Positions 1 to 28,457 of a stretch of DNA of 30,973 bases are shown one piece after another. The stretch lies in IMG/VR virus record IMGVR_UViG_3300026097_000684, positions 1 through 30,973 of that record. One strand, given 5' to 3'. Numbering within the stretch: the first letter of the stretch is position 1; the number at the start of each line of letters is the position of its first letter. Source of the stretch: a virus. The notes beneath the pieces were generated by a model. The model searched no databases. It was not told the origin of the DNA and saw only the letters and a list, made by a program, of their open reading frames with translations. The position numbers were made by a program, and so were the translations under genes.

Positions 1-357
1 ACTGCTACAATTACTGCTACAAAAAATACATTTTAAATTGCAAAGATTACTAAACTTAATTTCTAACAGCTCTGGAATTTTTACAAAATCTTGTTTAACG
101 TGTTTATGTGCATAATCCATTTTTAAGACTTGACGATAACTTTTAGATTTGTCTTTTTCTGCGTCCCAGCATCTCCAACAAGTAGGATGTTCGACATTTT
201 CACGAAGACGTTGTCGTTGATCTACTAATTCATCATGATTAAAAAAGTTTAAGTCATTAAGAGGCTTATATTCAGCTCGCGGACAACTTCGCCACCAGCC
301 GAAGCCAGTATCTATGCTATACATGTGCCATGGAAAAGCGCATAATTTATCTGTCAT
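1..357 (-). CDS. Radical SAM protein with N-terminal twitch, partial (C-terminus beyond window)
   Basis: The first 119 residues of a radical SAM enzyme run off the left edge of the window with no stop. The N-terminal cysteine segment has C6 in a CAFPWHM context, C25 and a C60/C63 pair (TCWRCW). The core CxxxCxxC follows at C106, C110 and C113 (LCNLKCIFC), which binds the 4Fe-4S cluster that cleaves S-adenosylmethionine. This order matches the siblings to the right, though a single SCP replaces their PCC. The ATG at 357 overlaps the end of the SDR-like gene by 11 bases, so the two are probably translated together. The GGE motif and the rest of the barrel lie outside the window. Substrate unknown. 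Confidence 0.88.
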   Translation of the reverse strand, partial: MTDKLCAFPWHMYSIDTGFGWWRSCPRAEYKPLNDLNFFNHDELVDQRQRLRENVEHPTCWRCWDAEKDKSKSYRQVLKMDYAHKHVKQDFVKIPELLEIKFSNLCNLKCIFCSSNCSS

Positions 358-913
358 GTTGTATCGGATCCACACTTAAAAAATTGATGTTAATTTCCTT
401 AGGTTGCTCTATTATCCATTCCACATAACTTGCAACTAAATCCATATCAAGACAAATTCTACCAGGATTATCATCTGATCTGTTTTCCATAGTACCGATA
501 CTTAGGTGTGTTACTTTTGGTTCATTACTCCATACACCGGCTATAGAAAACCCGTTACTCCACTCTTTTAGAGCAAGTTTTTCATAATGATATCTATTTG
601 TTTTTCCTCGGCGTACATTATCAGTGGTACTGCCAATATTTATAATACGCTTATGTCCTTCATTTTGTTCAGACCAATAATGCCATAAATTGTGTGCAAT
701 TAATGTTTGTCTAAAAAAGAAGTTAGCATATAAATTAATAAAAATATCTGCATCTTCTACAAGTTCTACTATTTTCTTAATATTTCCGTCATCGTTGAAA
801 TCTACGCCAGTTTCTCTACTAAAGCATACGCATTCATGCCCCTTAGCTTCTAGCCTATCTACAATATATTTGCATAGGTCCTTGTTTCTGTTGCCGGTCA
901 TGGCTATTTTCAT
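347..913 (-). CDS. Short SDR-like NAD(P)-binding protein
   Basis: A 188-residue protein that reads like a compact short-chain dehydrogenase/epimerase. It opens with a beta strand and nucleotide-binding turn (MKIAMTGNRN), has a strand plus acidic turn near residues 53-62, a serine in INIGST (S95), and a YxxxK pair at Y108/K112 (YHYEK). These are the usual SDR catalytic positions. The glycine pattern after TG is degenerate, and the protein is shorter than typical 240-350 residue members, so cofactor use is uncertain. In glycan pathways such enzymes reduce, oxidise or epimerise sugar nucleotides; that role is inferred from neighbours. The stop overlaps the next gene by 11 bases, and the start forms an ATGA junction with the upstream radical SAM gene. 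Confidence 0.6.
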   Translation of the reverse strand: MKIAMTGNRNKDLCKYIVDRLEAKGHECVCFSRETGVDFNDDGNIKKIVELVEDADIFINLYANFFFRQTLIAHNLWHYWSEQNEGHKRIINIGSTTDNVRRGKTNRYHYEKLALKEWSNGFSIAGVWSNEPKVTHLSIGTMENRSDDNPGRICLDMDLVASYVEWIIEQPKEININFLSVDPIQHDR

Positions 914-2010
914 AACATTTCCTTTGAAATTATATTTTCTATATTCTGTTGTCTAGCATTATCAAGGTATTTAGTAATATTTATAAACTGGTTATACAAA
1001 TCGTCAGATGTGTCTCGTAACATAAAATTATAAATATTATCTATTTTATCTAAATGTTTGCCAAATACACTTTTGTTTTCTAAATAAGTATTGTAAATTT
1101 TTTCTTTATATTCTTTTTTTAAATTATTCACACACAGATAGCTAGGTAACATAAGCGTGATATAATTAATTTTATCAGAAGTTTTTATTAGTTCTTTATG
1201 TATTAAATGTAATTGATGTATATTTAAATTTTGAACCGTTACATTAAATCTTAAATTAATGTTAGGTAATTTTGAAAACTTTTCTATATTAGTTACACAC
1301 ATTTCATAAGTAAAATCTTTACTACCTCTAATATAATCAAAAGTATCAGTTATACCGTCAATGCTAACAATAAGTTGTAAATCTGCTATTATGCTAGCTG
1401 CTGCAACTAACCAGTTAGGTACTATTGTTCCGTTTGTAACAATTAATAAAGTTATCCTATTAGCATTAGGTAATTTTAAAAAGGAAGATACAAGTCGTTC
1501 AGTTTCTGGCATAATAAGAGGCTCACCGCCTTTTAACTCAATAAAAACGTTTCCCTTAATTGTACTAATAAACTCTACTAATTTATCTATGTCAGCATTC
1601 TTAAGCTGGTATGCTTTATTATCATCTTTCTCTTCTATCAGATTTTCTGCAACTAAACCAGCATGATCTTTATACCATTGTGTGCTATTCCTAGGATTGC
1701 ACATTCTGCATTTTAAATTACAAAAGTTACCCATACTAATGTCTATCATAAAGTCATCTGGTGCTACCATAGGAACAGCATCGTAATATTGGCGTTTACT
1801 TCTAATGCCTCTGTCTTCGTCTAATTTACACCTAAAGCAACTTTCAGGAAAGTTATTATTTTCTAGTTCATTAGCAATGTCTGTAAATTTTATAGCATCA
1901 AAGTTTTTATATTCTGTAATATGCTTTTGTCTAACTTTGTTACGAGCGCACGGTCTAGTATACCCCTGAGGGTCTATCCAAAATCCGTTTGTGCTTGCAA
2001 AGCATTTCAT
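910..2010 (-). CDS. N-terminal-twitch radical SAM protein
   Basis: A 366-residue radical SAM enzyme. The N-terminal segment is shortened compared with its siblings: it starts directly at C3, followed by a G-Y-T-R-P-C stretch (C21) and the C58/C61 pair. The core CxxxCxxC is C97/C101/C104 (FCNLKCRMC), and GGEP, which contacts the SAM amino group in this superfamily, is at 161-164. A SIDG strand and DYIRGS follow. PCC of the siblings is PCA here, so the auxiliary cluster may have a different ligand set. The C-terminal end lacks the D.FPE tail seen in many siblings. It starts 1 base into the stop of the gene at 2010-3122 (TAATG). Substrate unknown. Confidence 0.9.
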   Translation of the reverse strand: MKCFASTNGFWIDPQGYTRPCARNKVRQKHITEYKNFDAIKFTDIANELENNNFPESCFRCKLDEDRGIRSKRQYYDAVPMVAPDDFMIDISMGNFCNLKCRMCNPRNSTQWYKDHAGLVAENLIEEKDDNKAYQLKNADIDKLVEFISTIKGNVFIELKGGEPLIMPETERLVSSFLKLPNANRITLLIVTNGTIVPNWLVAAASIIADLQLIVSIDGITDTFDYIRGSKDFTYEMCVTNIEKFSKLPNINLRFNVTVQNLNIHQLHLIHKELIKTSDKINYITLMLPSYLCVNNLKKEYKEKIYNTYLENKSVFGKHLDKIDNIYNFMLRDTSDDLYNQFINITKYLDNARQQNIENIISKEML

Positions 2011-3122
2011 TACAATTTCCTTTTAGGAATTTTGCTATCGGCGCTACTTACACAATTAGGAGTTGAGCAAATCATAGGTTTATCAAATAGTTTAAATCCT
2101 GTTTCGATATTTCCAAGAGGCACATCGTGACAACTATAACTTCGTTTAATACTTCCGTCAGGTTCTCTAATAATAATACCTTGATATCCGCTATTACATT
2201 CCCAGCCGTTGAAGTTATTAAAGTTAAACGCATTAAATCGTTCAGCTTGGTCCATATACCATTTTTTGCCGTCTTTATCTTCAAACTCAACTTGCATGTT
2301 CCACGGAACACTAGCATCATTTTTTCCGTGTATACCTTTTGGTACCTGAAAGCTAGGCTTTGGTCTTTCTGCCCATTTGCGTTTTACGTCAGTATATCCT
2401 CGTTGCGGCATACCATTCCATAACGTTTTAAGCATTTCGTCAGTATAGCCATCTACAACTCGACTAGCTGTAGGGTCGCTTTGAGGCTTTAGTGTTACGT
2501 TTATGCCTTGCTCGTGAAAGAATAAGGCGTTCTCCCAGTCACGTTCAAACCAGTCTGGAACCATGACCATGTTAATAGTAACTTGTATATCGTGTTCTTG
2601 ACACAGAATTAATTTGTTTGCAAAATCTTGCATCTTTTCTTTTGTAGTTAGGTGCTCTGTGTGCAGGCTTGCTGTTATACTTGCTCTGTGAAACGGTTTA
2701 ACTGCTTCTACATATTCTTCAAACCATTTCATATTGCGAGAGCAGTTTGATGTCATATGAACACTAGTGTAATTAGTATTACCAACATCATCAGCTAAAT
2801 GCTCCAAAATATCCAAGTAACCGGGGTGAAAAGTAGGCTCACCGCCAGATAAGCTAAAATGAAAGCTATTAAAACCGTTATCACGAGCTTGCCTCTTTAT
2901 TTCGTCAATTGTTTTTAAACATAATTCTGTAGGTCTATGATCCTTACGATCGCTTCTTGCATAAGGCCAGCAGTAGCTACACTTGTAATTGCAGAAACGA
3001 CCAAGTAACCAACTAACGGTGAATAAGTCTCTGTAAAGGAGTGTACGCTGGCCGACACGTACGATATCGTCAAACGGAATTTTAGTAAAATCGTAATTGG
3101 ACCATTTTAAATCTTCAGACAT
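2010..3122 (-). CDS. Radical SAM protein with C-terminal auxiliary cysteines
   Basis: A 370-residue radical SAM enzyme of a different layout from most of its neighbours. The core motif comes early (FCNYKCSYC, C44/C48/C51), followed by LSGGEP at 91-96, and the accessory cysteines are at the end: C309, C331, C352 and C357, with a PDGSIKRSYSC strand typical of SPASM/twitch domains. Its closest relative in the window is the protein at 12568-13560, which has the same order. It is joined to the gene at 910-2010 by a TAATG overlap. A strong promoter-like site lies just upstream and may give a leaderless message, since its -10 box ends only 5 bases before the ATG. Function beyond the enzyme class is not visible. 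Confidence 0.9.
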   Translation of the reverse strand: MSEDLKWSNYDFTKIPFDDIVRVGQRTLLYRDLFTVSWLLGRFCNYKCSYCWPYARSDRKDHRPTELCLKTIDEIKRQARDNGFNSFHFSLSGGEPTFHPGYLDILEHLADDVGNTNYTSVHMTSNCSRNMKWFEEYVEAVKPFHRASITASLHTEHLTTKEKMQDFANKLILCQEHDIQVTINMVMVPDWFERDWENALFFHEQGINVTLKPQSDPTASRVVDGYTDEMLKTLWNGMPQRGYTDVKRKWAERPKPSFQVPKGIHGKNDASVPWNMQVEFEDKDGKKWYMDQAERFNAFNFNNFNGWECNSGYQGIIIREPDGSIKRSYSCHDVPLGNIETGFKLFDKPMICSTPNCVSSADSKIPKRKL

Positions 3123-3127
3123 AATTT

Positions 3128-3155
3128 ATTGTAACACCTTACATATTTTTGTCAA
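3128..3155 (-). promoter_or_regulatory. Sigma-70-like promoter before the gene at 3122
   Basis: On the minus strand, TTGACA (3150-3155) and TACAAT (3128-3133) are separated by 16 bases. The -35 box lies inside the last codons of the aminotransferase-like gene. A start about 6-7 bases after the -10 box falls on or next to the ATG at 3122, so the message would have essentially no leader. Confidence 0.6.
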
Positions 3156-4026: not shown

Positions 4027-5224
4027 AAGGATATTTGTTACCTCTAATATTATCAAGTTCTGTTACATATCTTATAAGTTGATCATAATTACTGCTCCAG
4101 TCTTCGCTATTCATATATGTAAGCACATAGTTCATCTGTTCTTTATACTGAGTATTTTCTACTGTTTCTAAATGACTTTTTATCTTATGTGTAATTTTTT
4201 CTTTTGCGTATTTAGGCAAAACACGCATGTTGAGATGGTCAGGATCATATACTATATCAGGAGCAATATGAACTCCGTCATACCAAGATGCTTTGCCGAT
4301 CTTTTTAAAATTTGAGTGCGCAATGTAATTATAAAATTCAGGTATATATTCTATGTTAAGAGCACTTACCGCAGTATTAACTCTTATGTTTATATGCTCA
4401 GTAGTGTTGTCTAAAATATTTAAAGAATCTACCATGTCTTGCCATTTACTAGGAAAGCGTATATAGTCATTAAGTTCATCCAGTCCGTCTAAACTACACC
4501 ATAAATCTACTCGTTTAAATTCATTCCACAATTCAAAAACTTTATTAGGCAGTTTTGTTATATTAGTATTATACTTTATAAAAATATTTTTACTGTATCC
4601 TTTTTCTACTAACTGCTCTAAAAGCCTATAATGTTTTTTGTGTAGTAGAGGTTCGCCTCCTGCGAATTGTAACATTCTTAACTTATTACCGTTCTCTTCT
4701 AGATAATTCCAAAGTTCATCTAACTCGGGCCATTTGAGATTAGGCAAACTATGATGAGAGAATCCTGTATTTTTATACTTGTCAAGTATTGCTGTGTCTT
4801 CTAACCACTTGCTAGAACTGTTTGGATTACACATTACACATTTTAAATTACATAAATTACCTAGTCTTAGATCATAACTAACAATGTTATCTTCTACACT
4901 ACCATCGGCGGCTGTGCTATTGATTAGTTCGTCGATATTAAAACGTTTTTGCCAATTTGCTAGTTCTCCAAGACGCTTACTATGCGTATCACCGTTTGCT
5001 TCTTTATCCCAGCAGGTAAAACAAATATCTGGTCGTTCTCCGTTTAGCATTGCCTGACGTAGTTTTCTGACGTGTTCGCTGTTCCAATATTCTTTTATGC
5101 CTTCTTTGTGTATTTTATATCTATGTTCAAACTCTTTCGAAACACAGCAAGGGCGCAATGTTCCTGTAGTGCTAGCAAACAGGTGTATCCAAGGTAATAT
5201 ACAAAATGTATTTTTACTTGACAT
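4001..5224 (-). CDS. N-terminal-twitch radical SAM protein
   Basis: A 407-residue member of the main radical SAM set here. The N-terminal segment has FCILPWIHL (C8), RPCC (C26/C27) and ICFTC (C68/C71). The core is LCNLKCVMC (C125/C129/C132) and AGGEP at 188-192. A SLDG strand followed by NDYIRFPSKW is shared with four siblings (5214, 7062, 11213, 13560). The C-terminus ends LDNIRGNKYPYELY, a weaker version of the common tail. The gene overlaps the aminotransferase-like gene downstream by 26 bases and the radical SAM gene upstream by 11, so it is one link in a continuous operon. Substrate unknown. Confidence 0.92.
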   Translation of the reverse strand: MSSKNTFCILPWIHLFASTTGTLRPCCVSKEFEHRYKIHKEGIKEYWNSEHVRKLRQAMLNGERPDICFTCWDKEANGDTHSKRLGELANWQKRFNIDELINSTAADGSVEDNIVSYDLRLGNLCNLKCVMCNPNSSSKWLEDTAILDKYKNTGFSHHSLPNLKWPELDELWNYLEENGNKLRMLQFAGGEPLLHKKHYRLLEQLVEKGYSKNIFIKYNTNITKLPNKVFELWNEFKRVDLWCSLDGLDELNDYIRFPSKWQDMVDSLNILDNTTEHINIRVNTAVSALNIEYIPEFYNYIAHSNFKKIGKASWYDGVHIAPDIVYDPDHLNMRVLPKYAKEKITHKIKSHLETVENTQYKEQMNYVLTYMNSEDWSSNYDQLIRYVTELDNIRGNKYPYELYSTNK

Positions 5225-6572
5225 ATTCTTTTATGATCTCATATAATTCTGGAGCAACATCTTTAAAATTCTCATTTCTTATATTATCCAAACGCATTGT
5301 ATATTTCCAAAATTTGTCTAATTCGTCACTCCAATCTTCGGCTATCATCATATCATAATAAGATTCTAGTATCTTTTTACTGGCTTTTTTATAAGCATCT
5401 TTCATAGTTTCGTCTAAATTAGCAGTCATTAGATAATTATCTAACCAAATATAATATTCATTGTATTTTGTTTTTACAAAATCTTTTGCTTCTTTAGGTA
5501 ATATTTTAGTATTAAGAAATCTAGGATTATGCAAAGGATGAGGATTGAGTATCGGCTTGCTTGTATTAACACCAATTTTTTTAAAATTTTGCTGTATAAT
5601 CCATTTCATAAAGTCGGGCAAATAAGCAACATTATAAACTTGAATAGTGCAAGCTATCCAGGCTCTAATATCGCCAGGGGAGTTGTCTATTTTGTGTAAG
5701 TTTTCAGCGAGCTTTTGAAAATTACTAGGATTTCTGATATAGTCATTTAAATCTCCTACTGCATCTATACTAATACCTAGTTGCACTCTTTTAAATTTAG
5801 GCCAAATATCCCATGCACGTTTTGGAACATTAACTAGATTAGTATTATATTCAACAATTATATCTTTTGCATAACCTAGATCTATGCATCGTTCTAATAG
5901 ATCATAATGTTTATCTATTAACAACGGCTCGCCACCTACTGTGTGTATTTGCCTAATATTAGGAATATTTTTATCAATCTGTTGCCAAAATTCATCGCTA
6001 TCAAACCAATTATAATCATCATATTTTACAATATATCGGTTTTTTTCGTTTTTTATTAGCTCTACTTTTCCATGGCTATCGTCAAAAGTCTCCTGTCCCC
6101 AAACTTTTACATGATCCTCATACCACTGATGGCTGTCTGTGGGTCCACACATTCTACATTTGAGATTACAAAAATTTCCAAACCTCAAATCATAATACAT
6201 AACCGGTACTTCTTCAGTATTAATTGATCCGTCAGATTTTGTTATTGCCTTTGCTTTGTCAAAATTAAATCTATTATTCCATAATTCATTTTCATATTGT
6301 CTACGAGAATTAACACCGCTTGCATCTTCTCTATCACATCGTATACAAGCTTCATGATCAGTGCCTTTTAGCATACTTAAACGTACTTGTTTAGCTAGAT
6401 CTGAATTCCTAGCTTCGTCTAAATTATCGTATTTTGCGTTGTAAGCGGTGCCGTCTTTTTTACGATGTATACCTTTAGATATACTAGTGTTTGCTTGACA
6501 GCAAATTCTGATATCGCCATTATTGCGCACTGCTTCGAAAATCCAAGGTAACGGACAAAATTTATTATTCAT
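5214..6572 (-). CDS. N-terminal-twitch radical SAM protein
   Basis: A 452-residue protein with FCPLPWIF (C6), RICC (C24/C25) and ACIRC (C76/C79) ahead of the core FCNLKCRMC (C135/C139/C142) and VGGEP (212-216). The segment between the first and second cysteine pairs is about 10 residues longer than in the protein at 4001-5224, and an insertion of roughly 25 residues follows the core (about 160-185). SIDAVG with NDYIRNPSNF and the C-terminal tail LDNIRNENFKDVAPELYEII are family features. Overlaps its neighbours by 11 bases (downstream) and 8 bases (upstream). Enzyme class is clear; reaction is not. Confidence 0.92.
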   Translation of the reverse strand: MNNKFCPLPWIFEAVRNNGDIRICCQANTSISKGIHRKKDGTAYNAKYDNLDEARNSDLAKQVRLSMLKGTDHEACIRCDREDASGVNSRRQYENELWNNRFNFDKAKAITKSDGSINTEEVPVMYYDLRFGNFCNLKCRMCGPTDSHQWYEDHVKVWGQETFDDSHGKVELIKNEKNRYIVKYDDYNWFDSDEFWQQIDKNIPNIRQIHTVGGEPLLIDKHYDLLERCIDLGYAKDIIVEYNTNLVNVPKRAWDIWPKFKRVQLGISIDAVGDLNDYIRNPSNFQKLAENLHKIDNSPGDIRAWIACTIQVYNVAYLPDFMKWIIQQNFKKIGVNTSKPILNPHPLHNPRFLNTKILPKEAKDFVKTKYNEYYIWLDNYLMTANLDETMKDAYKKASKKILESYYDMMIAEDWSDELDKFWKYTMRLDNIRNENFKDVAPELYEIIKEYVK

Positions 6573-8468: not shown

Positions 8469-8539
8469 ACAATTACTTATGTTATTAAAACAGATTTAAT
8501 GGATAAATTGATTGCTATTCTTAAAGCCTCTAAATTTAT

Positions 8540-9625
8540 TCATTTGTATTGTGATCCTACTAAATCAAATTCTTGTGAACATTTCATTGCACACACTTTA
8601 AGTTTGCCATTTGAGCAACCTTTGGTTGACCAACTTTTTTCTATAGCTTCAAAAATACCTGTGTCAAAAACTTTTTCAAGTCCTACCTTTTTTGCATTAA
8701 TAGAATCTTTACCGCCAGCCTTGTTTATAAATTTCCATATTTGTTCTACTTTAGGATCTTTGTGCCACCATTTATACATACGGCCGGCTGTCCAGCAACA
8801 GGGCAATGCTAGTCCTTCTGCACTTATATATAAACTACCTGTTGATTTAACCCTACAAGTAATTTCTGATACATCATAAAAATTGTCCATAGATCCGTAT
8901 TTTTCTAATATTAAATCTCGTTTTTGTAATGCTTCGTTTTTTAAGCTTTCTTTTTTTGGTTCTTTTAAAAGTGTTGTTTTTTTACCTTTTCGATTAATTG
9001 CTTGATGTTCGTCTTTTTTCTCTGACGAGTGGCTAGTTATAAATCGAGCACTTTTCTTTACAATAAATTTTTCAAAACCCCACTCGTTAGACATTTGACG
9101 GGCTTCTTCAATTTGATGTTCGTTATAATCAAACACAAGAAAATCCCAACGTGCCCTGCCGCCAGCACCTATAAAACTGTCAATGGCACGTTTTACTTTG
9201 TTCCATTGTACACCTTGTCTGTATAAATGATTAGTATCTTCTAACCCATCGACACTGAAGATAACTGTACCGTGTCTGCCAATAGTCTTAGCTAACTCTT
9301 GCCACCATTGTTCGTCTCTAGCGCCGGCGTTTGTATTCATACTAAGCCATATATTAGGATTATGTTTTCTAAAATATTTAAAAGTTTCTAATAAATCTTC
9401 AGCAATAATCGGGTCGCCGTGGTTTCCGCACATCTGTATTGATTCTAATTGTAATATAAAATTAGGAGAAAACATATTTTTAATATCTTCGATTTTTAAT
9501 TCATCAAGATTCAAATAAGGATTTAATTCTCCTCCATTCATATTTCTATCACACATACTACAAGCTGCTTGACAACGCTGTGTGATCTCTAAATGTATTT
9601 GTCTGATATCTTCTAATTTATACAT
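8540..9625 (-). CDS. Radical SAM/SPASM protein with six C-terminal cysteines
   Basis: A 361-residue enzyme of classical order: core RCQAACSMC (C18/C22/C25) close to the N-terminus, then a GNHGDP motif (67-72) in place of GGEP, and a C-terminal SPASM region with C257, C276/C277, C337, C345 and C349. The segment SAEGLALPCCW is typical of SPASM domains, which carry two auxiliary 4Fe-4S clusters. SPASM enzymes usually act on peptides, proteins or small sugars; which applies here is not visible. The protein is unlike its twitch-first neighbours, so it probably has a separate origin. It overlaps the small gene upstream by 8 bases, and is followed by the 71-base gap. Confidence 0.9.
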   Translation of the reverse strand: MYKLEDIRQIHLEITQRCQAACSMCDRNMNGGELNPYLNLDELKIEDIKNMFSPNFILQLESIQMCGNHGDPIIAEDLLETFKYFRKHNPNIWLSMNTNAGARDEQWWQELAKTIGRHGTVIFSVDGLEDTNHLYRQGVQWNKVKRAIDSFIGAGGRARWDFLVFDYNEHQIEEARQMSNEWGFEKFIVKKSARFITSHSSEKKDEHQAINRKGKKTTLLKEPKKESLKNEALQKRDLILEKYGSMDNFYDVSEITCRVKSTGSLYISAEGLALPCCWTAGRMYKWWHKDPKVEQIWKFINKAGGKDSINAKKVGLEKVFDTGIFEAIEKSWSTKGCSNGKLKVCAMKCSQEFDLVGSQYK

Positions 9626-9851
9626 CGTGTACCAACTTTATATTCTTGCCAGGGCCAACTTTACTTGGTAAGTTACCATATTCTTCTATATACCATTCTA
9701 TTACAGCGCGATACCAATTTTGACTATCGTGATGTGCTTGTTTATTAAACTGCCAAATATTGTTATTAGTTGCTTGTATTGTAGCTAAAGCACGAGCACT
9801 TTCTTTTTGCAATTCTCTAAGACTTAAATCTTTTATACTACTTTTTTCCAA
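9618..9851 (-). CDS. Small 77-aa protein, TTG start, unknown function
   Basis: A charged, helical-looking 77-residue protein without cysteines, signal peptide or membrane segment. Residues 5-30 are predicted coiled or helical (SLRELQKESARALATIQ), and a W-Y rich stretch (46-55, NWYRAVIEWY) follows. No internal methionine codon exists, so the start must be non-ATG. TTG at 9851 has a GAGGT nine bases upstream, inside the end of the methyltransferase gene. It overlaps both neighbours (14 and 8 bases), which supports it being translated. It could be an adaptor or substrate carrier for the enzymes on either side, but that is a guess. Confidence 0.65.
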   Translation of the reverse strand: MEKSSIKDLSLRELQKESARALATIQATNNNIWQFNKQAHHDSQNWYRAVIEWYIEEYGNLPSKVGPGKNIKLVHDV

Positions 9852-10521
9852 TTAGCATGTACCTCGAATATTTTTCTAATTCTAATTCACCTGAATAAAT
9901 TAATGTAGACATCGATGCCATTTCTTTGAAGCTATCTATACTATCTACACAATTTACATGTTCTTCGACTTCATAAAAATTATTACTTTGTAGTACTACT
10001 AGCTTACCATCTGGAATTTTATCATACCATTCTGCAAAGTTTTTAATATGCTCACAACTAGTGTTAATAATAGTGTCAGGCATTTCTGTTAATTCTAAAC
10101 TTGTGCCATTTGATCTGTATGTGGTGTGAGTTGTAGGGAAATCCATATCTAATATATCAAGTGTACTTGCTTTAAATTGCCAGCCATTCATTACCCAAGG
10201 ACGATTCATTGTATCAGCAACAGATGCACAGCTTCTGTCAATATCAAAACTTCTAATTTTTTCAAATTTATCTATTGCCTTTTCAAACATTAACGCTGCT
10301 AGTGTTCCGTACCAGCCTGCACATATAAAAACCGTTCCTAAGTTATCTGGTAGATGTTCTATTAACCATAGTTTGCTTTTTAATTGACCCAAACTAAAAG
10401 CATCAACCATTGCTGTTTCACTTTGAGGGAATTTATTTAAAGTTCTTTTCATTTGAGAAATAGCTTGATTGGTCGGATATAAAAATTCTAAACCGTTAAG
10501 TAAATTAACTGTATTGCTCAT
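9838..10521 (-). CDS. Class I SAM-dependent methyltransferase-like protein
   Basis: A 227-residue protein with the outline of a class I methyltransferase. A hydrophobic strand and glycine turn (VFICAGWYGTLA, about 64-75) form motif I, SFDIDRSC (91-98) gives the acidic residue that holds the SAM ribose, DMDF (about 126) follows, and the strand DTIINTSCEHI (about 148-158) leads to the active-site region. It would transfer a methyl group to a small molecule, glycan or protein; the acceptor is not visible. Start ATG at 10521 overlaps the upstream glycosyltransferase gene by 17 bases; its stop overlaps the TTG-start gene by 14 bases. Confidence 0.75.
   Translation of the reverse strand: MSNTVNLLNGLEFLYPTNQAISQMKRTLNKFPQSETAMVDAFSLGQLKSKLWLIEHLPDNLGTVFICAGWYGTLAALMFEKAIDKFEKIRSFDIDRSCASVADTMNRPWVMNGWQFKASTLDILDMDFPTTHTTYRSNGTSLELTEMPDTIINTSCEHIKNFAEWYDKIPDGKLVVLQSNNFYEVEEHVNCVDSIDSFKEMASMSTLIYSGELELEKYSRYMLIGKK
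9861..9865 (-). promoter_or_regulatory. Shine-Dalgarno GAGGT for the TTG start at 9851
   Basis: GAGGT on the minus strand, with 9 bases before the TTG. It decides the start of a gene that has no ATG in frame. The site overlaps the last codons of the methyltransferase gene. Confidence 0.5.
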
Positions 10522-11188: not shown

Positions 11189-11194
11189 TATATT

Positions 11195-11223
11195 ATTATA
11201 CTGCCGTTTAGATTATTTGTCAA
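11195..11223 (-). promoter_or_regulatory. Consensus sigma-70 promoter before the gene at 11188
   Basis: On the minus strand, TTGACA (11218-11223) and TATAAT (11195-11200) are separated by 17 bases, an exact match to the bacterial housekeeping consensus. The -35 box lies in the last codons of the upstream radical SAM gene. Only six bases (AATATA) lie between the -10 box and the ATG at 11188, so transcription should begin at the A of the start codon. Confidence 0.75.
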
Positions 11224-12571: not shown

Positions 12572-13560
12572 GAAATAAGACCTTCGTATCCGGGTTTAGC
12601 TTTTGCTATATTAAAATCTGCTGCACAATGGCAATGTCCTTTAGGGCATATGATAGATTTAGTACTAGCCTCGTCAAATTTACCTTGTACTATGTTTCCT
12701 ACAATAGGGCCGACACCACAACTTGCCTGTTGTATTTTACCATTTGGGTGTATATGTAAACTTTCGTGTATATTACATGTCCATCCTTTAAAAAAATTCT
12801 TGCGATCAACAATTATTTCATTTGTATCTATATCGCCAATTGTATCATCTTCATAATGAATTCGTGCCCAGGCATAGTTAGACATTTTTTCTACAGGTAT
12901 AGTTTGTTGTGCATCAGTTGTATGTGTTTCAAAGAACTTGATATGCTCTGGATCATCGTAATGATACGGTTCAGTACTGGGTCGTAATTCGTCATATACA
13001 GGCGCATATTCAATGCGATAGTTGTCGCACTCTGTTTTTAATCTTTCTGCAATATCTATGCACTGCTGAAAATAGTCTTTGTGCATCATAATACGACTGC
13101 ATAGATAATTCTTTTTGTCTTGTAAAAACTTATAAGTGTCTACGTACTTGTCGTCTTTGGACCATTCAGCATGGTAACTTGCAACTACATCATCAAACAA
13201 ATGATGATTTTCTTCCCACCAACTCAAAGGTTTTGAAAAGTTTGTGTTAATGCCTACACAACTGCCTGGAAACTCTACTAGTTCTCTAAAACGTGTTACA
13301 ACAGGAATAAGACCTTTCCAAAACGTAGGTTCGCCGCCACTAAGGAATAGTTTAAAATATTTAAAGCCCCGTGATTGATAGTGTACAATAATGCGTTCTA
13401 GTGTTTCTACAATTAGGTCAACGTCTTGTTCATTTTTATTACGACCTGCCCAATTCCATTCACTGCAATATGTGCAACGAAAATTACACCAGTCGTTAAC
13501 TTGCCAAACTAGGTTGACCCACTTTTCTTTTGCATGCACAATTGCTTTAAAATCTTTCAT
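12568..13560 (-). CDS. Radical SAM protein with C-terminal auxiliary cysteines
   Basis: A 330-residue protein of the same layout as the one at 2010-3122: core early (WCNFRCTYC, C25/C29/C32), LSGGEP at 73-78, and accessory cysteines at the end (C262, C281, C305, C310, C312), in WTCN...IHPNGKIQQASC and CPKGHCHC contexts. The start of the core region, SGGEPTF and the final domain are similar to the paralogue, while the middle differs. It sits between two twitch-first radical SAM genes with ATGA (downstream) and TAATG (upstream) junctions. Substrate unknown. Being placed between enzymes of the other type suggests a joint pathway, which is inference. Confidence 0.9.
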   Translation of the reverse strand: MKDFKAIVHAKEKWVNLVWQVNDWCNFRCTYCSEWNWAGRNKNEQDVDLIVETLERIIVHYQSRGFKYFKLFLSGGEPTFWKGLIPVVTRFRELVEFPGSCVGINTNFSKPLSWWEENHHLFDDVVASYHAEWSKDDKYVDTYKFLQDKKNYLCSRIMMHKDYFQQCIDIAERLKTECDNYRIEYAPVYDELRPSTEPYHYDDPEHIKFFETHTTDAQQTIPVEKMSNYAWARIHYEDDTIGDIDTNEIIVDRKNFFKGWTCNIHESLHIHPNGKIQQASCGVGPIVGNIVQGKFDEASTKSIICPKGHCHCAADFNIAKAKPGYEGLIS

Positions 13561-14768
13561 TATAAATCCAATACGTCCTTAAACTCTGGGAATATATCGT
13601 TAAATTTAAACTTTCTATATTTGTCATTTATAGATATAAACTGCTTCATTTTTGTTAAATGTTCTTCAGAGTATTTATCGGTATTAAGTGTGTAGTTAAT
13701 TATTCTCTGTACAGCATCTTTATGACGCAATGTGTTTAGCTCTTGTAGCTGTCTAACGGTCTCGTCTCTAATTTCTTTGGGCCACACACAGCTATGTATC
13801 TGATCCGGATGCTCTAAAAATAAAGGAACAAAATCTATACGTCTAGTTTGTTGAGACTCAACCCATTGAATTAAGCGAGCAACATCAAAAACATTCCATG
13901 CTTGATATACAAAATATATTTTAAGCTGTACTTTACTAGGAAGTTTCTGTGCTAGTGCAAAGCTCTGTTCTACTTTTTTCCAGTCTGTCGGATAACGAAT
14001 ATAGCTATTTCGCATACCGTAACCGTCAATACTCATCTGTATTTCGCTTTGGTTAAAGAATTCCAATTTATCATAAAACTCACTAGGCCATGTGGTCATA
14101 TTAGTTGTCCAACAAACATAACAATCTTTGTTGCCAACTTCTACTAATTTATCTATAACATATCTATTAGCATCAATAAGTGTAGGTTCTCCGCCTGTAA
14201 GATATAAACGCTTTAGTGTAGGTGCAACAGCATCAATAAAGTCTCTAAATTCTTGTGTTTCAAACCATTTCCAATCAAATGCTTCTACACTTTTAATTTC
14301 ATGATTCCATTGATTAGCAAGCCACTCAGGTACTTGCTCTTTACTCATAATCTTTTTGCGTTCTTTATAAATGTTATCGCTACTGACACTCCAACAACTA
14401 TTACATTTTAAATTACAATGATTGCCAAGACGTAACTCTAAATGTGTAGGATTATAAACTTCTGTATTAGTAAGAGGATAAGTTTTGTTTGCCCACTGGC
14501 GACTGCTTTCTAGGCCTTTTTGTTCGTGTTCATAGCAACGATTACATTCTTTAAGAGGCAAGCCTTTTAACATACGATCACGAACTTCTTGCATATGCGT
14601 ACCGTACCAAATTTCTTTCCAGCTGTCTTTACCTAGTACAGCAGGTTTGTCATCTACTTCGATATAATCTTCGCTATAGATGTGACAACATAACTTACAT
14701 CTACCATCTGTATTAGTATGTAAGTTTATCCACGGATATACACAGAATGTGTCTTTTATCTCGTCCAT
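13560..14768 (-). CDS. N-terminal-twitch radical SAM protein
   Basis: A 402-residue protein with FCVYPWINL (C9), an extra cysteine C24 ahead of C27/C28 (CKLCC) and ECNRC (C75/C78). The core is HCNLKCNSC (C118/C122/C125), and TGGEP is at 191-195. SIDGYG plus NSYIRYPTDW is conserved, and the tail is FKFNDIFPEFKDVLDL, a full example of the common ending. It overlaps the B12-type radical SAM gene upstream by 13 bases and the gene downstream by one. C24 could be an additional cluster ligand. Enzyme class clear; reaction not. Confidence 0.92.
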   Translation of the reverse strand: MDEIKDTFCVYPWINLHTNTDGRCKLCCHIYSEDYIEVDDKPAVLGKDSWKEIWYGTHMQEVRDRMLKGLPLKECNRCYEHEQKGLESSRQWANKTYPLTNTEVYNPTHLELRLGNHCNLKCNSCWSVSSDNIYKERKKIMSKEQVPEWLANQWNHEIKSVEAFDWKWFETQEFRDFIDAVAPTLKRLYLTGGEPTLIDANRYVIDKLVEVGNKDCYVCWTTNMTTWPSEFYDKLEFFNQSEIQMSIDGYGMRNSYIRYPTDWKKVEQSFALAQKLPSKVQLKIYFVYQAWNVFDVARLIQWVESQQTRRIDFVPLFLEHPDQIHSCVWPKEIRDETVRQLQELNTLRHKDAVQRIINYTLNTDKYSEEHLTKMKQFISINDKYRKFKFNDIFPEFKDVLDL

Positions 14769-18144: not shown

Positions 18145-19336
18145 ATAACTCTCTCATTTCTGGAAACACATCTACAAAATTTTCTTTTCTTTTCTCGTCA
18201 ATACGTTGCATTTCTCGTTTAAATTCAGGAATTCTATCACTATTATCATTTGCCCACATAAAATCAATAACTTTTTGTAGACTATCACGCATATGGTCTT
18301 GAGAACCTTGATCCATTTGTTCGTATTTAGAAAAGTCTTCTATTAAGTTTATTATACGCTCTTCTGCAATATTTTTCAAGTGTTTTGGTAAAATTGTGCA
18401 ACTTAAATATTCAGGAGTAATTAATAAGTTGTTAATATTCATTTGAAAGTTATAAACAAAATTATTATCAAAGCAGTATCTAATGATATCAGCTAAGTCC
18501 ATTATATTTAAAACACTAATAGTAGGATTAGGTTTGAGTTTTAAGTTAGGAACATTGTCACGCATCCACAATAAGTTATCGTAAATTTTTTGCCAAGGCT
18601 GACCATGTCGTGTGTATTCTGCTTTTAGACCGATTTGATCAAAACTTACATAATAATCTATTTTATCAAAATGTTTCCAATAGTCTTTAATATGTTTATT
18701 TTTAAGACCTAGTCTACTAGCATTACTATTATAAGTTAATCTAGGTTTATGTCCCCGTTCGATTAACATTTCTAAAAGTCGGTAATGCTGTTCCATGAAC
18801 ATACTTTCGCCGCCTGTAAAATAGACCTCTTCGATATTAGGAAGTAGTTCTTCTATTTCTTCCCAAAGATTAGGATGGTTAATTTCAACAATATGCGGTT
18901 TACCATACTCGTCTTCGCCCCATTTACTACTAAAATGAGTGCCGCAACTGCGACATTTCATATTGCATAAATTCGAAAATCTTACATCAAAGTAACTAAT
19001 GTTAAGTTTATCTACTGTACCGTCTGCCTGAGTGGTATCAACAAGGTCTTTATGATGTGCATAGTCTTTATTCATTTTGTGGCGATAGGACAATATTCCC
19101 TGTTCTTCGTACATAAAACATTTACGGCATCCTTCAGTAGGTGTATTCTCTAACATTTTAAGACGAAGTTCTTTCATCTTTTTACTATTCCACACACCTT
19201 TTAAACCGCCTTCGTTAATATTTCCAATAGGCGTTTGCCAATCATATATACAGCAAGGATAAGCATCCCCTGTTTGCCAGACACTCATATGCACCCAAGG
19301 AGCCATGCAAAAGTGTTTTTCAAATTTATTCTTCAT
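18137..19336 (-). CDS. N-terminal-twitch radical SAM protein (tandem set, copy 2), GGES variant
   Basis: A 399-residue protein with FCMAPWVHM (C10), YPCC (C28/C29), GCRKC (C70/C73) and the core LCNMKCRSC (C124/C128/C131). All cysteines are at exactly the same residue numbers as in the downstream copy. GGEP is replaced by GGES at 175-178. SFDQIGLKAEYTRHGQPW replaces the usual SIDA...YIR segment. The tail is KRKENFVDVFPEMREL. A linker next to the core is about 8 residues shorter than in copy 1. It overlaps its neighbours by 8 and 11 bases. Function beyond the enzyme class is not shown. Confidence 0.93.
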   Translation of the reverse strand: MKNKFEKHFCMAPWVHMSVWQTGDAYPCCIYDWQTPIGNINEGGLKGVWNSKKMKELRLKMLENTPTEGCRKCFMYEEQGILSYRHKMNKDYAHHKDLVDTTQADGTVDKLNISYFDVRFSNLCNMKCRSCGTHFSSKWGEDEYGKPHIVEINHPNLWEEIEELLPNIEEVYFTGGESMFMEQHYRLLEMLIERGHKPRLTYNSNASRLGLKNKHIKDYWKHFDKIDYYVSFDQIGLKAEYTRHGQPWQKIYDNLLWMRDNVPNLKLKPNPTISVLNIMDLADIIRYCFDNNFVYNFQMNINNLLITPEYLSCTILPKHLKNIAEERIINLIEDFSKYEQMDQGSQDHMRDSLQKVIDFMWANDNSDRIPEFKREMQRIDEKRKENFVDVFPEMRELYD

Positions 19337-20645
19337 TTAGCCACCTTTGTTTATGTTCTTTAGACACATATGTCTCATAGATATATTTAAAATGTGGTAT
19401 TTCCTTCCATTTATCTGTATACCATAACTTATAGCTGATTTCTATAGCAAAATATTTTGGATCAAATGTATCCTTTTCATTCATAAAGTTAATTAAGTTA
19501 TACATTTTACTAGAAATATCATCAATTGCGTAATGGCTTACATTATTATGCATGTCGCGTGTTTTGATTTGTTCAGCCCAACGAGAAAGACGTTCGGACA
19601 TATCTTTCTTAACTTCAGGAGGTAAACTAGTAATACTAAACGGAGTAGGAGTATATGCTATGTTTGTTGTAAACCAAGTGTCTTCTTTTACGAGATTATG
19701 TTCTAGTATATAATCGTACATAGTAGTAATATGATCTATATTTAATATAGAAATTGTACTATCATAATTTAGTCTTATGTTTTCATAAGGTAATAGAGTT
19801 TTAATATTTTCTTCTAGTATGTTCCAGTTAGTTCCGTGCCTAATTAAATTTGCACGTTCACCTACAGCATCGATACTCATGCCTAGCTCTATATTATTAA
19901 AATTTTTCCAGTATTCGTAAATTGGTTTCTTTTTATAATATAGATTACTTAAATTAGTGTTATAGCGAAGTTTAGTGTCAGTAACCTTTTTTTCTTCTAG
20001 CAGTTCAAGTAACTTATAATGATCGTCCATTATTAATGGTTCGCCGCCTGCAAAGTAAATCTGATGACTATCTTTTAAGTGCGGTTCTAATTGCTTAATA
20101 ATATCTACTTTTGAATGATTGTTAATTTTGCTATATTTGTGTTGAGAGTTAAATGTTCTTCCGTTTGCTTCGGCATTTTCTTTTGCCATTTGTACCCATT
20201 TTGTACTAAACACTGGGCCACAACTAGCACACGCAAAGTTACATTGATTACTAAATCTAACATCTATATATTTTAATTTAAATTTATCAACAGAACCGTC
20301 ATCATTCGTTTCATCAATAATATCAACATATTGTCCAAAATCTCCGTTTGCAAAAGTTCGATAGCTAGGAGATCCAGATTCTTCTACTCCATGACATCGT
20401 CTACAAATAGGGTTTTTTATTCCATTCAGCATATCCAAACGAAGTTTATTCCAGTCATCGCTATTGAATATTTCTTCAAGAGTCTTATCTTTTGTATTTT
20501 CGTTAATAGTATCTTGTTCAACGGTACAACACGGAAAGGTTCTGCCGTCGGGTTCAGTATACATATGAATCCAAGGAAAGATGCAGAAACTGCCGTCTTT
20601 CACTGCATCAAGAAAGTCAGCTTTTTGTTCGTCACTATATTTCAT
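19326..20645 (-). CDS. N-terminal-twitch radical SAM protein (tandem set, copy 3)
   Basis: A 439-residue protein with FCIFPWIHM (C21), FPCC (C39/C40) and ICRRC (C81/C84). The core is QCNFACASC (C135/C139/C142), then GPVFSTKW and AGGEP at 199-203. SIDAVGERANLIRHGTNW shares RHG..W with copy 2. It has a longer N-terminus (11 residues) and a longer insert after the core (about 155-180) than the other two copies. The end (WYTDKWKEIPHFKYIYETYV) lacks the D.FPE form. It joins the glycosyltransferase-like gene upstream by an ATGA overlap. Confidence 0.92.
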   Translation of the reverse strand: MKYSDEQKADFLDAVKDGSFCIFPWIHMYTEPDGRTFPCCTVEQDTINENTKDKTLEEIFNSDDWNKLRLDMLNGIKNPICRRCHGVEESGSPSYRTFANGDFGQYVDIIDETNDDGSVDKFKLKYIDVRFSNQCNFACASCGPVFSTKWVQMAKENAEANGRTFNSQHKYSKINNHSKVDIIKQLEPHLKDSHQIYFAGGEPLIMDDHYKLLELLEEKKVTDTKLRYNTNLSNLYYKKKPIYEYWKNFNNIELGMSIDAVGERANLIRHGTNWNILEENIKTLLPYENIRLNYDSTISILNIDHITTMYDYILEHNLVKEDTWFTTNIAYTPTPFSITSLPPEVKKDMSERLSRWAEQIKTRDMHNNVSHYAIDDISSKMYNLINFMNEKDTFDPKYFAIEISYKLWYTDKWKEIPHFKYIYETYVSKEHKQRWLNEE

Positions 20646-21847
20646 GACGTAGCTCTTAACAATTTTTCTTCAATCGGCTTCCAACTAATTTTGCGTGTCA
20701 TAAAATTATTCCAATTATGTTCTATACATTCCCAGTACTTATTTTTAATTAGATACTTAAAATTATCTAATGGTCTTTTTTCTAAAGTTCTAATTAACGT
20801 TACAGCATCTTCGTATGTTTGAATTGTTTCCATGCCAAAAAAACTTTCAAATGTTTTATATCCTCTAGCTCTTAACGTTTCATTCATTGCCGGATTACCA
20901 ACAAGTATAAACGGGTGACAATGTACTATTGCCTTAAAAGTTTTTTCAGTAAGAAAGTTTTCTACATCTAGACTTTCTGTAATAATACTTATTAAGCTGT
21001 TGTGATAATACGGTAAAACTGAATCACTATGCCATATTACTTGGTCTGAAGGTTCATCTAGTTTTCTATCTTGGTAGATTCTTGGTTCATTTACAATTTT
21101 TTCTGTTAAATTACTAGGCATTTTTTTGCATTCGTTTCTAATCCATGCTACTAAACTATCTTTGGTATAATTTTCAGATTTGGCAATAGACGGAATATGA
21201 TAGCTGACATAGCTGTCATCTATTAATTTAGTATCTAATAAACTTTGATACCACCACAGACGATGACCTTTTAAATTCCTATTTAAAGTTAGCGCCTTTT
21301 TATTAGCAGTATCAATTGTTTTAAGCTTTTCCTCTGGAGTTATAAACGAAACGTCAGAAAAGTGTTTTAAGTGGTGTCTGTATTGTGCTTCCCACCATTC
21401 CGGGACACTTACAAATTTTAATCCATTAACAATTTTGTTATTATATTCTTCACTACTACAAGTAAAAATAATTTTTTCTTTTTTTATTCCAGACTGATCA
21501 ATAATTTCATACAATTCATCTGGCCTAAATGTAGCTTCGTGTGGACTATACATCCACAGATAACTATTGCTATCATTATTAATTGTATCAATAGTTTTTT
21601 TGTCGTTAATCCATATATTAGGACTAGCGTCAGGAAAATAGCATAAATTAAAATAAAGTTTTAAGTCAGTTGCTGGAAGTAAAGGTAATAAATCTTTTTT
21701 TACTAAGCAATTATAATCAAAATCAGTATAAAAGCCTAGCACGGTTTCTATACTCATCACAGCCCAATCGGGAACTTTTACACTAGACGAACTATAAATG
21801 TCATTGTGTACATTTTCAACTATAATATGTAGCTGTCTTTTATTCAT
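20642..21847 (-). CDS. Putative GT-B-type glycosyltransferase
   Basis: A 401-residue protein without a recognised N-terminal signature, but residues 287-333 carry a segment common in GT-B enzymes such as the fucosyltransferase-like GT10 group: SIITES, NFLTEKTFKAIVHCHPFI, then LVGNP and GYKTF. Here the E-K pair of TEKTFKA (about 300-306) and the GNP turn would lie at the donor-sugar site. The N-terminal half has a weak alternating strand/helix pattern (LHIIVENV, YLWMYSPHE, IIFTCSSEE), as expected for the first GT-B domain. No membrane segment. The ATGA junction with the radical SAM gene and the 8-base overlap upstream tie it to the pathway. A related non-GT fold is possible. Confidence 0.55.
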   Translation of the reverse strand: MNKRQLHIIVENVHNDIYSSSSVKVPDWAVMSIETVLGFYTDFDYNCLVKKDLLPLLPATDLKLYFNLCYFPDASPNIWINDKKTIDTINNDSNSYLWMYSPHEATFRPDELYEIIDQSGIKKEKIIFTCSSEEYNNKIVNGLKFVSVPEWWEAQYRHHLKHFSDVSFITPEEKLKTIDTANKKALTLNRNLKGHRLWWYQSLLDTKLIDDSYVSYHIPSIAKSENYTKDSLVAWIRNECKKMPSNLTEKIVNEPRIYQDRKLDEPSDQVIWHSDSVLPYYHNSLISIITESLDVENFLTEKTFKAIVHCHPFILVGNPAMNETLRARGYKTFESFFGMETIQTYEDAVTLIRTLEKRPLDNFKYLIKNKYWECIEHNWNNFMTRKISWKPIEEKLLRATS

Positions 21848-22382
21848 TAAGGAAGCCGCTAATTTGTAGAGTTATTTTTGGTTGTAACCCTATATTGCCG
21901 CTTACATGAAGAATACCACTATCCCAAAGCCAACCTTCTCCTTGTTTCCAATGAGTATGACTCTGCCAGTCTTTGTTTGTGTCTTGATATTGTATTACAT
22001 GCCCGACTTTCCAGTCTTCTAAATACATATTAGCACGTACTTTAGTACGAGTATCATCAGGATACATATTATTAATTTTAAAGAATGTATCTCTGTGTAC
22101 CGTAATTACATTTCCAGGAGGTTGCAGTATACTACTCACGGTTACAACTTCCATATTCATTTGACGGCCTAGTTCTTCGTAATCAACTTGATCTTTATCC
22201 CACCATAGTTGTTGAATACGTGTGTTGTCTTCATGATAGCTTTTTGGAAAGCCACCAGCAGACTCGTGTATATCTTCTTGTTCTCTTACTTGATACGAAA
22301 TACAACTTCCGTAATGTTGATCATAATCTGCATTTAAAAATACATCAAAATCGTAATCTAAATTAACTGCTCTAAGTAACAT
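21840..22382 (-). CDS. 2-oxoglutarate/Fe(II) oxygenase-like protein (aspartyl hydroxylase-like)
   Basis: A 180-residue double-stranded beta-helix protein. The iron facial triad is visible: HRD at 96-98 (H96 and D98, after NVITV) and H159 in SGILHVSGN, followed by a basic residue (K169) in PKITLQISG where the co-substrate carboxylate is usually held. The stretch EGWLWDSGILH is typical of the aspartyl/asparaginyl hydroxylase type. These enzymes hydroxylate or halt at desaturation of protein side chains or small molecules; which applies is not visible. The start ATG at 22382 has a good AGGAG six bases upstream, at 22389-22393. It overlaps the glycosyltransferase-like gene by 8 bases. Confidence 0.7.
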   Translation of the reverse strand: MLLRAVNLDYDFDVFLNADYDQHYGSCISYQVREQEDIHESAGGFPKSYHEDNTRIQQLWWDKDQVDYEELGRQMNMEVVTVSSILQPPGNVITVHRDTFFKINNMYPDDTRTKVRANMYLEDWKVGHVIQYQDTNKDWQSHTHWKQGEGWLWDSGILHVSGNIGLQPKITLQISGFLNE

Positions 22383-22402
22383 GCTTATCTCCTGAATATT
22401 AG

Positions 22403-23776
22403 TTATTTATTTGCTGCTTTCTTACACTGATGGAAAAATTTAGCCATTTCAGGAAATGTATCTTGATAGTTGATATTTCGACGACGGTCTTGTTCTTGGA
22501 AAAAGTTATGAAAGTCTTTTCTGCCTTCTTGAATACGTTCTTCTGGGTACTCTGCTGTACGCATGTAGTCAACTACACGGCGAAACTTTTCATATTCTAG
22601 GGTACTAAATGCATGTTTGCTGTCATCATCTAAATTGTCTTTAATAAATTGTAAATGACTTTCCATATAAGGCATGTAATCTTCTTTAGGAAGAATATTC
22701 ATATCATATTGTAGAGGTTCTTTGAGATAGGGTGTATCGAAATGAATACGTTGCCAGCGATGTGTTTCAATATTATTATATTTTTTACGCCATTCTAAAA
22801 TCTTTTCTAGCAGGCTTTGGAATGTTGTAACACTAAAAATATTAAATGTAATCATAAATGTTAAAGGAGCAGTAGTATTTTCTAAGAAGTAATCCATGTT
22901 ACGTTCAAATACTTCAATATCTAAACCATCTCGAATGTATTCTGCACGTTCTCCCCATGTGTCAACACTAGTAAACAACTTAAATTGTTTAATTTTATCT
23001 TGACTTAATAAGCTGTTTACACTATCAGTAAATTTTTCTAGTTGTTTGGGCTTGCCGCCTAGGTTAGTATTAACATTAAGTTCTAGATGCGGCTTGGGAT
23101 CTTTTTCTAGTAGATCAAACAATTTGTAAGTACTGGTTTGAATAGTTGCTTCGCCGCCTGTAATACGCAAAATGTTTAGTGTTTTACTAACTTCAGGCCA
23201 CCATTTCCACCATGCATCTAGATAAGGGTTTGATTCTTCCTCATAAATGTTGAACCAATCAATATCACAGCGGTGATTATTGACCATATCATACGGACCA
23301 AACTTTTTTATTTCATTATAAAATCGACTACTTGCTTTTGGATGGCAATATCCGCATCGGAAGTTACACTCGTTACCGAAACTAACTTCTAAATATTCTG
23401 GATTAACATTAAAATCTGGTTCTTTAGTAGCAACTTCGTTTAGCCTGTCGTTGCTATAAATGCTACTACTGCGTATATGTCTATCACTAACATAGTCTTT
23501 GCCCATGTTTTCAACGTTCCAGCAGTATTGACAACCACTAGTCTGAACACCGTTGAGCATTTCCATGCGTTCTTGTTTTTTAATCATAGTGTTGTGTAAT
23601 GCACTAGGATTTTCTTTGATTTCATCAACATCAATTGCATGTGGTGCAGGATGATAGCAGCTATGTGTTTCGCCTGTTTGAAAATAGATATTGGCATGAT
23701 ACCATTTGGCAAAACAAAACGTTTTACTAAAATGTTTATCAGTTAACTCTCGAACTTTTTTTAATTTTTCGTCCAT
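22403..23776 (-). CDS. N-terminal-twitch radical SAM protein, divergent (GGEA)
   Basis: A 457-residue protein that is the most divergent of the twitch-first set. It keeps FCFAKWYHA (C21) and GCQYC (C82/C85), but the usual PCC is SCYH (C40 only). The core is ECNFRCGYC (C137/C141/C144), and GGEP is GGEA at 207-210. A tryptophan-rich stretch (about 188-196) lies before it. SVDTWGERAEYIRDG and the tail RRNINYQDTFPEMAKFF are family features. It is the first radical SAM gene in reading order, after the glycosyltransferase at 24705 with a TAATG junction. A 20-base gap follows before the oxygenase-like gene, containing its Shine-Dalgarno. Confidence 0.9.
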   Translation of the reverse strand: MDEKLKKVRELTDKHFSKTFCFAKWYHANIYFQTGETHSCYHPAPHAIDVDEIKENPSALHNTMIKKQERMEMLNGVQTSGCQYCWNVENMGKDYVSDRHIRSSSIYSNDRLNEVATKEPDFNVNPEYLEVSFGNECNFRCGYCHPKASSRFYNEIKKFGPYDMVNNHRCDIDWFNIYEEESNPYLDAWWKWWPEVSKTLNILRITGGEATIQTSTYKLFDLLEKDPKPHLELNVNTNLGGKPKQLEKFTDSVNSLLSQDKIKQFKLFTSVDTWGERAEYIRDGLDIEVFERNMDYFLENTTAPLTFMITFNIFSVTTFQSLLEKILEWRKKYNNIETHRWQRIHFDTPYLKEPLQYDMNILPKEDYMPYMESHLQFIKDNLDDDSKHAFSTLEYEKFRRVVDYMRTAEYPEERIQEGRKDFHNFFQEQDRRRNINYQDTFPEMAKFFHQCKKAANK

Positions 23777-28393: not shown

Positions 28394-28416
28394 ACATATA
28401 CTCCTGTTTTTATAGT

Positions 28417-28445: not shown

Positions 28446-28457
28446 CCGTGAATGTGG

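Follow-up and report, generated by a model that had tools for sequence, protein, structure and literature searches.

The window analysed here, the entire linear viral contig of IMG/VR record IMGVR_UViG_3300026097_000684 (30,973 bases), carries an array of radical S-adenosylmethionine (SAM) enzyme genes beside glycosyltransferase and tail genes, in which all 29 main genes lie on the minus strand and mostly overlap. The order of this gene module is conserved across many viruses, and several modules are concatenated in the virus from which the window comes. The gene set probably makes a coating of an unusual kind, for which a glycan is the likeliest identity. Our leading interpretation, to which we give somewhat less than even credence, is that the window belongs to a large T4-related virus, in which it forms an expanded "host recognition" island, and that its radical enzymes tailor a glycan on a virion protein.

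All 14 complete radical SAM proteins that an earlier note on this DNA had recognized by motif are borne out, at coordinates that agree with the open reading frames (ORFs). Eleven of them pass the Pfam cut-off for PF04055; the proteins at 7062, 16942 and 22403 fall below it, yet score 418, 399 and 302 bits against NF033640, the NCBIfam model of N_Twi_rSAM (hereafter N_Twi), whose curated cut-off is 170 bits. Ten complete window proteins are N_Twi members with 212–418 bits (910, 4001, 5214, 7062, 11213, 13560, 16942, 18137, 19326 and 22403). The other four are two short radical SAM proteins (2010 and 12568), an "R" type (8540) and an enzyme at 14756–16945 that combines a vitamin B12-binding domain (PF02310, 47.8 bits) with a radical SAM core (PF04055, 58.2 bits). 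Alignment of the ten N_Twi paralogues showed the three radical SAM cysteines, four N-terminal cysteines and a GGE motif to be invariant. The ascription of GGEP-like motifs to all 14 proteins was too broad, as the translation of the 8540 gene reads CGNHGDP and that of 14756 lacks a GGE motif. Profile scores far over the cut-offs rule out chance motif matches. Named radical SAM functions were also rejected, each scoring under its cut-off: the 910–2010 protein reaches 26.7 bits against the ahbD heme b synthase model TIGR04545 (cut-off 500), and the 14756 protein 118.9 bits against TIGR03975 (cut-off 282), a C-methyltransferase of ribosomally synthesized and post-translationally modified peptides (RiPPs). 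Many "ahbD" auxiliary genes have been reported from viromes (PMC9301287), and the very low ahbD score of the 910 N_Twi protein suggests that such calls may be mislabelled N_Twi enzymes.

A fifteenth radical SAM gene, cut by the window edge at 1–375 (79 bits against NF033640 over 125 amino acids), is whole in a sister contig of 36,813 bases (G001), where it encodes 392 amino acids. G001 and the window differ at 9 of 26,472 bases and are the same virus, both being fragments of its genome. G001 reaches 10.3 kb past the left edge of the window, adding further N_Twi enzymes, one more short radical SAM protein and one more B12 radical SAM protein. The whole of G001 holds 20 radical SAM matches over 36.8 kb, 14 of them N_Twi; the earlier total of fifteen was right as to enzyme type and too low as a count. 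The extension also encodes oxygenases (Pfam Asp_Arg_Hydrox and 2OG-FeII), a protein matching Aminotran_1_2 (1280–2140) and, by eye, acetyltransferase-like and kinase-like proteins, and ends at an apparent fibre-type protein on the opposite strand (by eye). Radical SAM enzymes are costly and oxygen-sensitive, yet 20 stand side by side in one virus, implying a product that strongly affects fitness.

A profile built from the ten window N_Twi proteins matched at least 593 related viral stretches. The best 80 loci, which were picked by similarity and are thus biased toward rich arrays, include near-duplicates (e.g. L020 and L095) and had genes called by a simple longest-ORF rule. In these loci the recurrent order is tail fibre f, F, m, T, T, (q), A and then the N_Twi genes, and in dozens of other viral contigs variable sugar-modifying genes come after the N_Twi run. 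Over all loci examined, family A was found in 68, G in 65, T in 61, m in 56 and F in 52. Loci other than those of the window's own virus mostly have 2–8 N_Twi genes, and long array-bearing contigs (106–347 kb) have 7–20 radical SAM genes each. We checked whether relatives carry only one or two of these genes at random, as the earlier note had asked; they carry 2–8, in conserved order and beside tail genes. Recurrence of the module in the same order in dozens of viral contigs argues that the array is no chance pile-up.

Relatives of the array point to a phage setting. Of the 14 long array-bearing relatives, 9 have a T4-type gp23 capsid gene, and several long contigs have a Peptidase_G2-type fibre gene near it; one member of family f passes the Pfam Peptidase_G2 cut-off. 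Protein F distantly matches proteins of PA5oct-like jumbo phages that are located near a virion structural gene. By gene order, tail fibres (fibre end at 30764–30973) and glycosyltransferases lie together in one variable island of the window. A fragment of a host genome is disfavoured by this tail-fibre end and by the presence of the same module in gp23-bearing contigs. A-type iron-sulfur (Fe-S) carriers occur in 6 of the 14 long relatives (G006–G010 and G016), four of which also have gp23, and could possibly supply clusters to the radical enzymes. Among isolated phages, N_Twi has only distant matches (Vibrio phages K566, K567 and D479 and one marine fragment), the 18137 protein has no match at 1e-5, and A and T have none in the isolated-phage collection at 1e-3.

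Only 8 of 381 N_Twi proteins have their closest relative within their own locus, which rules out recent gene amplification and indicates that the paralogues are old and specialized. For the N_Twi protein adjoining A (N1), the best match is another N1 in 46/57 cases, as compared to 7/324 for other N_Twi proteins; judged by such matches, the radical SAM paralogues are position-specific. In 15 gene pairs with relatives, nonsynonymous differences per site (pN) were well under synonymous ones (pS), with pN/pS of 0.2–0.4 in most pairs and synonymous sites near saturation, a pattern that places the tested paralogues under purifying selection.

Sequence comparison further resolves the window array into at least three blocks, a mosaic whose pieces are found apart from one another in other phages. 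Block 0 (22403–30973) matches L072, L066, L083, G005 and L014, and its N1 protein is 72–76% identical to the first-position N_Twi protein of the first three. Block 1 (11213–22382) is collinear with L016–L020 and L095 at 32–79% identity, block 2 (7062–11188) is collinear with G005, L069, L088 and L091, and block 3 (below 7065 plus the G001 extension) has few close relatives. From this collinearity, the unusual size of the array seems to come from joining modules found singly elsewhere. Of the dedicated multi-step pathway proposed in the earlier note, the co-occurrence of the genes in conserved order stands, and a single fixed pathway gives way to the mosaic, whose genes may serve one pathway or several tailoring routes in parallel.

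Since searching PDB sequences with A and G yielded no useful match, we turned to their folds. The AlphaFold model of A (pLDDT 90.5) has SunS/ThuS as its best Foldseek matches in the PDB (E = 1.5e-4) and also matches viral glycosyltransferases; its DxD-like residues D65/D67 are invariant. The model of G (pLDDT 88.5) matches SPY/OGT and GT10 fucosyltransferases (E = 8.8e-5 to 5e-4). At the level of fold, A is thus a predicted GT-A-like and G a predicted GT-B-like glycosyltransferase, and T is GT8-like. Arrays of relatives contain genes for a carbamoyltransferase, NAD epimerase/GDP-mannose dehydratase, UDP-glucose dehydrogenase, DegT aminotransferase, GT7 and RmlC/RmlD, neighbours that make or modify nucleotide sugars, as well as a gene for SufE. 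Near the arrays of L086, L093 and L028 we also observed proteins that join a GT7 galactosyltransferase domain to a laminin-G-like lectin domain (by Pfam for L086, by similar sequence for the others).

These neighbour genes suggest that the radical enzymes tailor a glycan. The glycosyltransferases would build it up on a virion protein itself, within the cytoplasm; the simplest candidate for this acceptor is an adjacent tail protein. The radical SAM enzymes, each predicted to bear an additional iron-sulfur cluster, would use radical chemistry to tailor either sugars or the glycan as it grows, possibly by dehydrogenation, epimerization or deoxygenation, with C-methylation by the B12 enzyme. One radical SAM enzyme may serve each site or step, alongside oxygenases, a methyltransferase and aminotransferases. 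Phages that swap whole blocks would thereby alter the glycan and hence host binding or evasion. A broader proposal, possible but held with more doubt, is a combinatorial radical-chemistry glycan factory in which block exchange gives tails diversified glycans without lipid carriers, a fast-changing coat for host recognition or evasion.

Searches of the PDB with the N_Twi profile gave weak and mixed matches to SkfB (best), viperin, BtrN and BlsE, with E values of ∼5e-5 to 8e-5 for BtrN and BlsE by sequence profile. The N-terminal cluster domain resembles that of BtrN, an aminocyclitol dehydrogenase, and the core resembles, among others, that of BlsE, a sugar-acid decarboxylase. BtrN and BlsE act on sugar-like rings. 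Both relationships are distant, and the cluster domain is C-terminal in BtrN and N-terminal in N_Twi.

Several observations weigh against a virion glycan. The best PDB matches of N_Twi include the peptide-maturing SkfB and the nucleotide enzyme viperin, and the profile libraries and literature searched gave no function, product or substrate for the N_Twi family. In a Paenibacillus genome (L117) an N_Twi gene belongs to an acyl-carrier/fatty-acid-like operon, which means that glycans are not the only context of the family, and neighbours in bacterial genomes are mostly other radical SAM genes with a few glycosyltransferases, a weak glycosyltransferase signal. Foldseek TM-scores are low (0.3–0.45), which keeps the A, G and T assignments at fold level. 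The window itself lacks recognizable genes for nucleotide-sugar synthesis, and phages could borrow the lipid carrier and flippase of the host.

Bacterial N_Twi relatives (L106–L180, e.g. L143, L153 and L155) are concentrated in Bdellovibrionota, which are predatory bacteria, some with 7–8 copies in 17 kb. The B-N-A-N-s-A arrangement of L153 (B, B12-binding; N, N_Twi; s, short radical SAM) resembles the phage blocks, suggesting gene exchange. Six stretches filed under bacterial metagenome-assembled genomes (L109, L110, L111, L113, L128 and L131) bear the module of phage tail genes plus array and appear to be contaminating phage DNA.

The radical SAM enzymes might instead carry out RiPP-like chemistry on the side chains of amino acids in a phage protein or peptide, of the tail or capsid, which the glycosyltransferases then decorate. 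We consider this unlikely, yet a serious rival. Peptides are frequent substrates of SPASM/twitch radical SAM enzymes, and SkfB heads the PDB matches of N_Twi; the B12 enzyme is nearest to the RiPP C-methyltransferases TIGR03975 and ApyD, and the best PDB matches of A, SunS/ThuS, are peptide S-glycosyltransferases. We found no precursor-like gene in the window, however, where the sole extra small ORF (9618–9851, 77 amino acids) has no cysteine-rich or repeat core, although a full-size protein could be the substrate, and the neighbours in relatives are sugar-nucleotide enzymes. The earlier note had left the product as a virion glycan or a modified peptide; neighbour genes, glycosyltransferase folds and the lack of export machinery better support the glycan.

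Export bears on a second alternative, that the island remodels envelope polysaccharide of the host during infection and so blocks superinfection. This role was proposed for the glycosyltransferases of the pelagimyophage host recognition cluster (PMC7029224), and GT8-like, carbamoyl- and epimerase-type tailoring enzymes occur in lipopolysaccharide pathways too. Initiating lipid-linked transferases (PF02397, PF00953) and a flippase (PF01943) were found in 0/15 contigs, most of which are incomplete, while 9, 12 and 13 of 14 control genomes, respectively, were positive. Only 11 of 1080 proteins around the arrays appear membrane-bound by hydropathy. Together with the tight linkage of arrays to tail genes, these results favour an acceptor within the cytoplasm, for example a tail protein, over an exported host polysaccharide, and we regard envelope remodelling as improbable.

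The array might also be a collection of unrelated auxiliary metabolic genes, for cofactor or tRNA metabolism for example, that share no pathway and have gathered in a hypervariable region. This would fit the habit of such islands and the few close relatives of block 3, but gene order and position-specific orthology are conserved over dozens of contigs and ten of the fourteen radical SAM proteins fall in one subfamily, making this more improbable still. Selfish expansion, with copies multiplying by recombination and having little function, would explain why 20 genes in 36.8 kb far exceeds other loci, but is very hard to reconcile with copies that are 23–35% identical to the first in the alignment, have intact catalytic cysteines and are under apparent purifying selection.

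Genes of the window, from the tail-fibre end to the left edge, with the evidence for each assignment
Position	Strand	Feature	Evidence
30764..30973	-	Tail-fibre protein f, C-terminal end, cut by window edge	Family f C-terminal match, E 1.3e-18
29750..30754	-	Tail/virion-associated protein F, first copy	Family F in 52 loci
28458..29690	-	F, second copy, with CBM5/12-like insert	PF02839 8.3e-7; F profile 210 bits
28034..28393	-	Conserved small protein m	Family in 56 loci, same position
27190..28047	-	GT8-like T	Family profile vs glycogenin chains, E ∼5e-4; 61 loci
26061..27215	-	Second GT8-like T	PF01501 0.0018 (below cut-off); T profile 258 bits
24698..26068	-	Protein at position of small protein q of other phages	7 loci, 29–44% identity; q profile borderline, E 0.005
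23776..24705	-	GT-A-like glycosyltransferase A (predicted), DGDN motif	AlphaFold, Foldseek; family in 68 loci
22403..23776	-	N_Twi radical SAM N1, adjoins A	NF033640 302 bits
21840..22382	-	Oxygenase-like (2-oxoglutarate/Asp-hydroxylase type, by eye only)	No Pfam match; 52–67% identical homologues in phage arrays
20642..21847	-	GT-B-like glycosyltransferase G (predicted)	AlphaFold, Foldseek
19326..20645	-	N_Twi radical SAM	NF033640 344 bits
18137..19336	-	N_Twi radical SAM	NF033640 378 bits
16942..18144	-	N_Twi radical SAM	NF033640 399 bits
14756..16945	-	B12-binding radical SAM B, putative methyltransferase	PF02310 + PF04055; TokK E 6e-10
13560..14768	-	N_Twi radical SAM	NF033640 297 bits
12568..13560	-	Short radical SAM s	PF04055 30.8 bits; 66–73% identical in L016–L020
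11213..12571	-	N_Twi radical SAM	NF033640 317 bits
10505..11188	-	Second A-type glycosyltransferase (predicted), begins block 2	69% identical to G005 copy
9838..10521	-	Methyltransferase-like (by eye)	No Pfam match; 36–51% identical in block-2 phages
9618..9851	-	Conserved 77-amino-acid protein	74% identical in G005, 54% in L069
8540..9625	-	Radical SAM R type, CGNHGDP replaces GGEP	PF04055 34.7 bits; phrog_21308 72 bits
7062..8468	-	N_Twi radical SAM	NF033640 418 bits
6565..7065	-	Protein without relatives found	Profile and homologue searches
5214..6572	-	N_Twi radical SAM	NF033640 377 bits
4001..5224	-	N_Twi radical SAM	NF033640 387 bits
3139..4056	-	Pyridoxal phosphate aminotransferase-like	NF006964 E 0.0032 only; resembles G001 protein 1280–2140
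2010..3122	-	Short radical SAM s	PF04055 59.5 bits
910..2010	-	N_Twi radical SAM	NF033640 212 bits
347..913	-	Short-chain dehydrogenase/reductase-like (by eye)	No Pfam match over cut-off
1..375	-	N_Twi radical SAM, cut by window edge	NF033640 79 bits; complete in G001 9538–10716

The 9618–9851 gene has a TTG start and lies between the R-type radical SAM gene and the methyltransferase-like gene. By eye, the 24698 protein and the 26061 GT8-like protein both contain a module IDIWY...QHVWxNNxYxLT (at the N-terminus in the latter), as would a pair of proteins with a common binding domain.

The module names concrete partners (A with N1) and would turn the vague label of auxiliary metabolic genes into a testable virion-modification system. 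With at least 593 viral stretches encoding N_Twi and the partners A and T unmatched in the isolated-phage collection, a large block of virus chemistry seems to be unexplored.

The NF033640 model ("twitch domain-containing radical SAM protein") itself names no function. The window proteins share its N-terminal four-cysteine domain and radical SAM core and pass its cut-off; the window's virus differs in having 14 members (G001) in one island beside other radical SAM types. The pelagimyophage host recognition cluster, described in 2020, places radical SAM cassettes in islands with tail fibres and glycosyltransferases (PMC7029224). It shares with the window a hypervariable island, tail fibres, GT8 glycosyltransferases, radical SAM cassettes and a T4-like phage setting; the window is far richer in radical SAM genes, and the VrlC/gp14 borders are not seen because the contig ends before them. 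Unlike our preferred reading of a virion-protein glycan, that study favoured modification of the host O-chain (PMC7029224). A 2017 report describes TARA_ERS488813_N000010, an environmental genome of a T4-like virus that encodes 12 radical SAM enzymes together with an Fe-S carrier (PMC5332604). It has in common with the window's virus a T4-like setting rich in radical SAM genes, and A-type Fe-S carriers recur in relatives of the window; in the available portion of that report the genome appears as a count of Fe-S genes with no tail-linked module, while the window's virus has its 20 in 36.8 kb. Glycans on mycobacteriophage capsid and tail-tube proteins (Freeman 2023, cited in PMC12619734) are a precedent for virion glycans, radical SAM enzymes going unmentioned in the part of PMC12619734 available. 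Multi-radical-SAM T4-like phages and host-recognition islands with radical SAM genes are therefore already known; new, as far as our searches show, are the conserved tail-linked module, the position-specific orthology, the mosaic build and the extreme count in one island.

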